45,252 nucleotides of DNA from Thermomicrobium sp. Lineage in GTDB: Bacteria > Chloroflexota > Chloroflexia > Thermomicrobiales > Thermomicrobiaceae. Shown piece by piece: positions 1,858-4,371 of this stretch. The translations under genes and the position numbers were made by a program. The stretch lies in NCBI GenBank assembly GCA_026419575.1, contig JANZZC010000068.1, forward strand, positions 1 through 45,252, in the 5' to 3' direction. The notes under the pieces are model-generated. The model was not told the origin of the DNA. It worked only from the letters and a program-made list of their open reading frames with translations, and searched no databases. Position 1 is the stretch's first letter; each line of letters begins with the position of its first letter.

Positions 1858-4371
1858 ATGTATCTGCTCGATCAGCCAGATGCAGCGTTGGCGTACCGGC
1901 GGCAGTATCGGGGGCTGATCGGGATCACGAGCAAGGTGCCGCTGCGCGACCGCGCGATGTTGAGCCTCGTCTACACGCCGGGAGTGGCTGAAGCCTGCCG
2001 GGTGATCAGTCAGGACGAGGTCGCTTCCTTCGACCTGACCGGTCGAGGCAACACGGTCGCCATCCTGACGGACGCGTCGGACCTCTTCGGTCCGACGCGC
2101 GCGCCGGTCGAGGCGGCGCTCCCGCTGCTCGAGGCCAAGGCGGTGCTCTTCAAGACGTTCGCCGGTGTCGACGCCGTACCGATCGGTGTCGATCTGACCG
2201 ATCCGCTCGAGATCGTCGAGGTCGCGCGTTCGCTCATCCCGACCTTCGGTGCCATCTGTCTCGATCACATCCGGGCGCCGCACAGCTTCACGATCCAGGA
2301 TCACCTCGAGAAGGCAGCGCCGATCCCGGTCTTCTCCAACCAGCATCACGGGACGGCGATCCTCGTGCTCGGAGCGCTCAAGAACGCGCTCGAGGTCGTC
2401 GGGAAGCGACTCGAGCAGGTGCGGGTCGTCATCGCCGGGGCTGGCTTGGCCGGGATCGGTGTCGCGCGCCTCCTGACGCGCGTGGGCGTCAAGGACCTCA
2501 TCGTCTGCGACCGGGCCGGCGCGATCTATCTCGGGCGACCCTACCGGATGAACTGGGCGAAAGCGTATCTCGCGAAGGAGACGAACCCGGAACGGCGCCG
2601 CGGCTCGCTCGCCGAAGTGCTGGAGGGGGCCGACGTCTTCATCGGCCTGGCGCGGGGGAACATCCTGACGCCGGAGATGGTCGCGAAGATGGCGCCGGAT
2701 CCGATCGTCTTCGCGCTCGCCCTCCCGACGCCCGAGATCGACCCGACGTTGGCGCGGCAAGCGGGAGCGGCGGTCGTGGCGACCGGCCGCTCCGACTATC
2801 CCAATATGATGGACGTCTCGCTCGTTTTCCCCGGTGTCTTCCGCGGGCTTCTGGACTCCGGTGCTCGCAATATCCGGCTGCGGACGCTCATCTACGCGGC
2901 CGAAGCGCTGGCCGGTCTCGTGCCGCCGGAGCAGCGAGGCCCGGACCACATCGTGCCGCAGATCTTCGATTTCCGGGTCGCGCCGGCGATCGCCGCCGCG
3001 GTCGTGCAGGCGGCGCTCGAGACGGGCGAGGCGACGCGGCCGGTCGACCCGCAGCAGGTCGCCGAGAATACCAGGCGGTACATCTACGAGGGGGCGTTCG
3101 AGCCGCCGCGACCCTCGAACCGACGACCGCGGTCGCTGGCCGAGCAGGCCCTGGATCTGCGCCGGCGCTACCGCGGCGTCCTGGAGATCCGCAGCAAGCT
3201 GCCGGTCCGCGATCACCACATCCTCAACCTGCTTTACCTCCCCCCGGCGGCGCTGGCACCGGTCGAGGAGGTACGGAAGCACCGCGAGGCGGTCTACGAC
3301 CTGACCGTGAAAGGAAACCTGGTCGCGATCGTGACCGACGGGAGCGCGGTGCTCGGCCTCGGCGATATCGGGCCGCAGGCCGCATTGCCGGTGATGGAGG
3401 GGAAGGCGGTCCTCTTCCAGTCGCTCGGGGGTGTCGAGGCGTTCCCGATCTGCGTCGCCGAGCGCGATCCTGAGCGGATCGTCGATATCGTCACAGCCAT
3501 CGCCCCCTCGTTCGGCGGCATCAATCTCGAGGACATTTCGGCGCCCCGGTGCTTCGAAATCGAGGCGGCGCTCAAGGAGCGCCTCGATATGCCGGTGTTC
3601 CACGACGACCAGCACGGCACGGCGATCGTCGTCTTGGCTGGCCTCATCAACGCGTTCAAGCTCCGGGGAACGCCGCTCAGCGAGGCGCGCATCGTCATCA
3701 ACGGCGCCGGAGCGGCTGGCATCGCGACGGCCAAACTCTTGCTGGTGTATGGAGTGGGAGACGTCGTCCTCTGCGACCGGCACGGCGCGATCTACCGCGA
3801 GCGGGAAGTTGGCATGAACCGCTACAAGATGGAGATCGCCCGATTGACGAACAAAGCGGGCGTGCGAGGCAGCCTCGCCGAGGTGCTCGCCGGTGCCGAC
3901 GCGTTCGTCGGCCTCTCGAGCCCGAACATCTTGACGCCGGAGATGATCCGGACGATGGCGCTCGATCCCATCATCTTCGCGCTCGCCAATCCCGATCCGG
4001 AGATTCATCCCGACCTGGCGCTTGAAGCCGGTGCCCTGGTGGTCGCGACGGGGCGCTCCGACTTCCCGAACCAAGTCAACAACTCGCTCGCGTTCCCGGG
4101 CGTCTTCCGCGGTGCGCTCGACGTGCGGGCGCGCGACATCAACGATGCGATGAAGCTGGCCGCTGCCCAGGCGATCGCCGGGTTGGTCTCGCCGCGCCAG
4201 CTGTCGCCCCAGTACATCATCCCGGACAGCCTGGATCTCAACGTTCCTCCGGCCGTCGCGGCGGCGGTCGCCCGAGCGGCGATCGAGACGGGCGTCGCAC
4301 GGGTCCAGCTGGACCCCGAGGAGATCGCGGCGCGAACCCGGGAGCTTCTCTACGAAGGGGTGCGCCACTGA
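1858..4371 (+). CDS. Tandem-duplicated malic enzyme (two malic enzyme units in one chain)
   Basis: The 837-aa chain is about twice the length of small bacterial malic enzymes and consists of two homologous units, residues ~1-415 and ~425-837. The reaction expected from the family is NAD(P)-dependent oxidative decarboxylation of malate to pyruvate. Unit 2 keeps the metal ligands ED (558-559) and DD (583-584), the GLGDIGP loop, MEGKA lysine, GAGAAG Rossmann turn, NPDPE and QVNNS. Its early substrate loop is changed to YLPPAALAP. Unit 1 keeps the canonical YTPGVAEAC loop (39-47), the lysine in LEAKA and the GAGLAG turn. It has lost the metal and malate residues: ED is DH (136-137), DD is NQ (161-162), NPDPE is LPTPE and VNN is MDV. 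Unit 1 alone is therefore very probably not catalytic. ATG at 1858 follows GGGGTGGGG. It could be an intramolecular pseudo-dimer; activity and cofactor are not deducible here. Confidence 0.85.
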   Translation: MYLLDQPDAALAYRRQYRGLIGITSKVPLRDRAMLSLVYTPGVAEACRVISQDEVASFDLTGRGNTVAILTDASDLFGPTRAPVEAALPLLEAKAVLFKTFAGVDAVPIGVDLTDPLEIVEVARSLIPTFGAICLDHIRAPHSFTIQDHLEKAAPIPVFSNQHHGTAILVLGALKNALEVVGKRLEQVRVVIAGAGLAGIGVARLLTRVGVKDLIVCDRAGAIYLGRPYRMNWAKAYLAKETNPERRRGSLAEVLEGADVFIGLARGNILTPEMVAKMAPDPIVFALALPTPEIDPTLARQAGAAVVATGRSDYPNMMDVSLVFPGVFRGLLDSGARNIRLRTLIYAAEALAGLVPPEQRGPDHIVPQIFDFRVAPAIAAAVVQAALETGEATRPVDPQQVAENTRRYIYEGAFEPPRPSNRRPRSLAEQALDLRRRYRGVLEIRSKLPVRDHHILNLLYLPPAALAPVEEVRKHREAVYDLTVKGNLVAIVTDGSAVLGLGDIGPQAALPVMEGKAVLFQSLGGVEAFPICVAERDPERIVDIVTAIAPSFGGINLEDISAPRCFEIEAALKERLDMPVFHDDQHGTAIVVLAGLINAFKLRGTPLSEARIVINGAGAAGIATAKLLLVYGVGDVVLCDRHGAIYREREVGMNRYKMEIARLTNKAGVRGSLAEVLAGADAFVGLSSPNILTPEMIRTMALDPIIFALANPDPEIHPDLALEAGALVVATGRSDFPNQVNNSLAFPGVFRGALDVRARDINDAMKLAAAQAIAGLVSPRQLSPQYIIPDSLDLNVPPAVAAAVARAAIETGVARVQLDPEEIAARTRELLYEGVRH

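Follow-up and report, generated by a model that had tools for sequence, protein, structure and literature searches.

The question raised by this locus is whether a protein built of two malic enzyme (ME) units, each lacking active-site motifs that the other retains, forms one active site between its halves, or whether the first half has become an allosteric pseudoenzyme. The window (the whole stretch of DNA that was analysed) comprises 45,252 nucleotides of a Thermomicrobium sp. contig (JANZZC010000068.1, positions 1 to 45,252; assembly GCA_026419575.1), and the gene is a single open frame on its forward strand (1858-4371; 837 amino acids).

Two stretches each of PF00390 (malic; 112.8 bits) and PF03949 (Malic_M; 146.9 bits) were found in the 837-amino-acid protein using Pfam, both families scoring above the curated cut-off and PF00390 doing so in each half; this bears out the preliminary description of two ME units head to tail in one chain. 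Unit 1 (U1) and unit 2 (U2) are 50.5% identical (BLAST). Small MEs are the best solved relatives by sequence, with U2 as the better-matching half (residues 416-815 against 5CEE, the small, or minimal, ME of 'Candidatus Phytoplasma' AYWB; E 1.3e-123). No PTA domain was matched in the protein in Pfam or NCBIfam at E 0.001, and PRK12861 (NADP-dependent malic enzyme), at 663 bits, stayed below its cut-off of 1178. Of 36 matching PDB sequences none bears the name of a double ME, and only MaeB hybrids come near 837 amino acids in length. Rfam gave no match in the window at gathering scores. The features of the gene are summarized in Table 1.

Table 1. Positions in the window of the two malic enzyme units and of their active-site elements.
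Feature	Position	Strand	Remarks
U1, residues 1-415	1858..3102	+	ME unit; predicted Tyr-loop donor, own site degenerate
U1 YTPGVAEAC (Y39-C47), catalytic-Tyr loop, kept	1972..1998	+	YTPGV in 118/118 U1 covering the loop; predicted to act in the site of U2
U1 K94, catalytic-lysine equivalent, kept here	2137..2139	+	lost in several lineages
U1 D136-H137 in place of metal-site E-D	2263..2268	+	motif alignment
U1 N161-Q162 in place of metal-site D-D	2338..2343	+	first Asp lost in 121/121 U1
U1 L289 in place of Asn of NPxPE	2722..2724	+	motif alignment
U1 M318-D319-V320 in place of VNN	2809..2817	+	motif alignment
Linker, residues 412-426, last U1 helix to first U2 helix	3091..3135	+	least confidently modelled part of the chain interior
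U2, residues 416-837 and stop	3103..4371	+	ME unit with intact metal/malate/nucleotide side of the site
U2 YLPPAALAP (Y460-P468), changed loop	3235..3261	+	Y[T/S]PGV absent in 123/123 U2; predicted to face the dead site of U1
U2 K516, catalytic lysine	3403..3405	+	K in 122/122 U2 covering this place
U2 E558-D559, metal site	3529..3534	+	121/121 each
U2 D583-D584, metal site and lysine partner	3604..3609	+	121/121 each
U2 N711 of NPxPE	3988..3990	+	117/117
U2 V740-N741-N742, malate/nicotinamide side	4075..4083	+	N741 and N742 in 116/116

All motif residues reported earlier for the window were found as described: U1 keeps YTPGVAEAC and has lost the metal-site ED and DD, the Asn of NPxPE and VNN, all of which U2 keeps. 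Judged as a small ME, U2 has the full set of catalytic Lys, metal E-D-D-D, NPxPE Asn and VNN and U1 has not; the YTPGV or YSPGV loop, expected in the unit bearing the catalytic residues, is absent from U2 and sits in U1. Replacement of the U2 loop by YLPPAALAP holds for the YTPGV motif, but the Tyr itself (Y460) is retained, as it is in 113 of 123 tandems (H in 7, F in 2, C in 1); what was lost is therefore the TPGV part, and the reading that U2 lost its Tyr was rejected.

The motif comparison covered 123 distinct tandem frames, the window included, after removal of 19 duplicate fetches; 12 of the 123 were incomplete at a tested place and were set aside. In 111/111 complete tandems YTPGV is found in U1 and the residues K, E, D, D, D, N, N and N in U2, and likewise in 111/111 U2 is without Y[T/S]PGV and the U1 site is changed. 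Each half thus lacks what the other has, and two equal active sites per dimer are not what these sequences describe; one site is depleted on both sides. The 14 tandems fetched later (of 20 found) all fit the pattern, one with YSPGV in U1, and within Thermomicrobiales (47 tandem frames fetched, 43 complete) the reciprocal losses are seen in 43/43. Conservation of the U1 changes, on which the preliminary description had made its reading depend, therefore extends to relatives both close and distant. The U1 equivalent of MaeB D174, the Asp that positions the catalytic lysine, is gone in 121/121 U1; the depth of decay varies, with two of eight residues changed in 3/121 and at least six changed in 75/121. 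At the lysine position of U1, K is found in 92, R in 14, V in 9, N in 3 and A in one (119 U1), and the loop Tyr is kept in 118/118. Single MEs keep every motif residue in 99/99 rows (from 95 loci, not fully deduplicated, a few having been re-fetched; a 100th row, L130, was left out as a piece of a frame-broken tandem). As judged from sequence, reciprocal loss is an old and conserved trait of the family.

Retention was also assessed in 50 non-redundant tandems (<80% alike) at 81 columns that are near-invariant in single MEs, with the limits of the swapped segment placed by analogy with the Entamoeba histolytica enzyme. In the segment (10 columns) 0.89 of the columns are kept in U1 and 0.65 in U2, whereas in the body (71 columns) the values are 0.68 and 0.97; the partition of losses between segment and body gave a Fisher p of 0.012 on few columns (2/0 versus 1/20). 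In single MEs the GK motif that opens the entangled segment has a near-invariant Lys; this Lys has been lost from both halves (L20 and V441 here, 1915-1917 and 3178-3180; retention 0.00 and 0.02 in the 50 tandems), a double loss that may reflect an interface reshaped for the pairing of U1 with U2.

Other tandem MEs in Chloroflexota, proposed earlier as a check, were found: in a sample of 400 genomes of the phylum 128 matched at E 1e-100, and 14 of these matches cover both units (12 within the order, and G345 and G379). Other genomes of the genus carry the tandem at 94-97% identity. In the order, 52/61 genomes match, some as contig-end fragments or with frame breaks, and the nine without a match are 67-93% complete; the tandem is also present in two other families of the class (G089, G090). 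Among the best 80 of at least 595 loci, five further full-length tandems bear the record labels Proteobacteria, Vampirovibrionales, Chloroflexi, Deltaproteobacteria and unclassified bacterium, and a frame-broken tandem lies in a Nitrospirae bin. Sets of relatives, with the starting genome counted in each, yielded the tandem in 18/97 genomes for the Vampirovibrionales genome and in 10/98, 31/99, 19/99 (11 in common with the 31/99 set), 3/97 (one being the frame-broken starting genome) and 20/98 (one showing U2 alone, at the end of a contig) for the others. The occurrence in several phyla and the patchy spread suggest transfer or repeated loss. No description of a tandem, fused or double ME was found in the open-access PMC literature, judged partly by title, and the double ME is apparently an ancient, undescribed form present in several bacterial groups.

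The complete record of the 918-kb plasmid of T. roseum DSM 5159 (NC_011961.1) carries the tandem at 94% identity with the same key residues, in an 837-codon frame that is open throughout (L239:8001-10514). The PLSDB gene table, which describes itself as incomplete, has an entry for the C-terminal half alone (TRD_RS15155, WP_041437577.1), as 'NADP-dependent malic enzyme'. Upstream of the gene in the window lies a stretch of about 1 kb (814-1857; 75% G+C). Two long frames from it contained no Pfam domain, and nine loci of the same family, together with the T. roseum plasmid, match it only near its ends; in T. roseum the two genes are 122 bases apart. One strand of G089, from family f12 of the class, carries two consecutive double MEs (L127:702-4960), of which one is cut by the contig end and has Phe for the U2 loop Tyr. 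The tandem MEs of L129, L130 and L056 contain frame breaks and are pseudogenes or assembly errors.

In two trees (quick searches) U1, U2 and the single MEs form three groups, each on one side of a branch (support for U1 99 and 100, both starred; for U2 91 and 90, unstarred; for single MEs 98, starred, and 94), which points to one ancient fusion. Separate fusions were rejected in the two lineages tested, using quick trees with the active-site columns removed: a clade uniting U1 and U2 of seven Thermomicrobiales tandems lowers the log-likelihood by 124.9 units (p-AU 8.4e-7), and one uniting those of four Vampirovibrionales tandems lowers it by 73.6 (p 0.004). Because the loss of the U1 Asp and of the U2 loop is common to all tandems covering these places, both losses probably date from the origin of the family; some lineages later lost the lysine, more acids or part of the motif. 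A locus of a Clostridiales MAG (L036:4971-7409) holds closely related single ME genes head to tail; as a younger fusion it was ruled out, being two separate complete genes 60 bases apart, and the pair could have the look of a pre-fusion stage.

Solved relatives suggest how the losses map onto the active site. The small ME homodimers of AYWB (5CEE), Thermotoga maritima (TM0542, 1VL6) and E. histolytica (3NV9) share with the tandem the catalytic residues and, as predicted for the tandem, the fold and the swapped Tyr loop. For the E. histolytica enzyme a composite site is described, with Lys120 NZ at 2.8 Å from Tyr65' OH across chains (PMC11944484), and for MaeB a swapped helix of the opposing monomer is described as the supplier of the tautomerisation residue Y52 (PMC7902834). 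The hybrid MaeB of B. bacteriovorus and E. coli is likewise a long two-part chain with an ME part and Y52 acting in trans, according to the same source, but its second part is a regulatory PTA domain and its ME part is complete in each subunit, whereas the second part of the tandem is itself an ME. If the YTPGV Tyr is donated to the partner site, as in small ME dimers, a fused dimer would have two mixed sites, of which the U1 loop with the U2 body would be intact and the U1 body with the U2 loop dead. The pieces kept belong to the one site and the pieces lost to the other, and of the two readings offered in the preliminary description the composite active site is hence the better supported. 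U2 does not appear to be complete without YTPGVAEAC, as by the structures of its relatives its own loop would point to the dead site.

We conclude that the protein is very probably an asymmetric ME dimer, fused into one chain and sharing a single composite active site, a reading that is well supported by conservation in the family and by published dimer structures and from which activity and chain pairing are predicted. U1 would pair with U2 in the swapped way, and its Tyr39 would enter the pocket of U2 (K516, E558, D559, D583, D584, N711, N741, N742) and complete the NAD(P)+-dependent oxidative decarboxylation of malate, yielding pyruvate and CO2. The U1 body and the U2 loop would make up a dead mirror site; after the fusion, selection would have maintained just one site of the pair, leaving both parts of the other to decay together. 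The subunits of a small ME homodimer are identical and form two composite sites, whereas those of the tandem are fused and unequal and, as judged from sequence, one site is gone.

Large ('eukaryotic-type') MEs, for example human ME2, perform the same chemistry. In metazoan MEs the Tyr region is described as lying within one chain (PMC11944484), and in large MEs the Tyr meets the Lys and metal residues in one chain, as is proposed for the tandem; in large MEs, however, it comes in cis from one ME unit, and in the tandem it is predicted to come from a second, fused one. AlphaFold placed both units of the whole chain confidently, in a one-chain U1-U2 arrangement (best pLDDT 90.0, pTM 0.90; mean pLDDT of the five models from 90.0 to 56.0; alignment of 6 rows; possible recall of dimers from training). 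All 387 residues of the 5CEE chain superpose on U2 at 1.1 Å with 50% identity, so the loop segment of U2 itself stands in the swapped place. With VIA-align, the alignments of 29/31 large-ME entries begin at model residue 23-25 and end at 834-837 (26-30% identity); these entries thus use the N-terminal segment of U1 and the C-terminal part of U2, with the switch point inferred from the first and last aligned residues that the program reports. The remaining two (1do8, 7mf4) were matched to U1 alone (20-22% identity), and for six full-length MaeB entries the best fit is to U1, or to U1 and the start of U2. On a single-ME control model (alignment of 11 rows; pLDDT 72.0, pTM 0.76; residues 1-60 at 33-46) human ME2 entries start at residue 127-151, compared with 96-97 on the tandem, and 28 of the 29 large-ME entries start later in the solved chain, the exception being 6urf, which starts earlier. 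The segment missing in the control is taken by us to span Tyr112 of human ME2. In these models, a lone single ME leaves its N-terminal segment unplaced and the U1 segment appears to fill the place of the cis Tyr.

The composite site might also form between chains, with U1 swapping with the U2 of another chain in a dimer of tandems that has two working sites. This is a sub-case of the composite reading, with overlapping odds; it predicts the same motifs, so that sequence cannot discriminate, and prokaryotic MEs can be dimers or tetramers, as stated in PMC11944484. Since the one-chain arrangement folds confidently with a linker of about 15 residues, we consider the interchain pairing unlikely.

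That U1 is an allosteric or structural pseudoenzyme only, with U2 pairing with the U2 of a second chain and using its own Y460 loop, would be in keeping with the retained U2 Tyr (113/123), from which a U2:U2' dimer might still draw its Tyr, and with the appended PTA domain that is described as regulating the ME part in MaeB (PMC7902834). A pure regulator, however, would not need the YTPGV that U1 keeps in 118/118 despite decay of its pocket, U2 is without Y[T/S]PGV in 123/123 and without the Tyr in ten, and the best model is one confident U1-U2 arrangement; we therefore regard this alternative as highly improbable. Of the earlier proposal of a pseudoenzyme, the absence of a site of its own in U1 stands, but U1 appears to be more than a regulator, namely a needed donor. 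Slightly less probable again is that the fused protein is no longer an ME and has changed its substrate, e.g. to another 2-hydroxyacid: the loop and the mirror site have indeed been rebuilt, but the eight U2 residues (lysine, metal, NPxPE, VNN) are present in 111/111 complete tandems, and this frame holds the only PF00390 matches found in its genome (estimated 90.9% complete). An artefact of assembly or annotation (merged neighbour genes or a decayed duplicate), which the half-length PLSDB entry and the frame breaks of L129, L130 and L056 might suggest, is scarcely credible given the uninterrupted frame in T. roseum DSM 5159 and in more than 100 other loci, with key residues conserved in both halves.

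The fused dimer with one composite site leaves the fate of the mirror site to be considered. In Thermomicrobiales K94, D136, N161, H163 and D319 are at 100% (22 non-redundant U1), and the dead-site residues vary outside the order. A special constraint on the dead site within the order was not borne out (12 residues against random U1 columns, p 0.099; U2 loop, p 0.20). The fold of phosphofructokinase-1 is unrelated to that of malic enzyme. The eukaryotic enzyme is nevertheless described as another product of tandem duplication and fusion, in which one half keeps the active site and the sites of the other have diverged (PMC2990764), and by this precedent a regulatory role of the dead site is possible. 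The effector sites of phosphofructokinase-1 are known, whereas that of the tandem ME is putative at most; it could consist of D136, S160-N161-Q162-H163-H164 and D319 of U1 and the PPxAL loop of U2. That an entangled dimer became, by fusion, one entangled polypeptide with a lone catalytic centre, and that in Thermomicrobiales its mirror site was rebuilt as an effector-binding regulator, as in eukaryotic phosphofructokinase, is a tentative suggestion that we hold to be rather doubtful as a whole.

The tandem appears to combine a known fold and known chemistry in an unusual architecture. The half-length tabulation of the T. roseum gene as malic enzyme is a caution for annotation. On the trees, a homodimer was fused once, long ago, and lost exactly one of its sites, a natural experiment on enzyme symmetry. 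The decay of both contributors to one site, with the other fixed across several bacterial groups, is independent evolutionary evidence for the trans-acting Tyr of small MEs. In such a one-site enzyme the halves are separately mutable, and a 'pseudoenzyme' half can be an indispensable donor.
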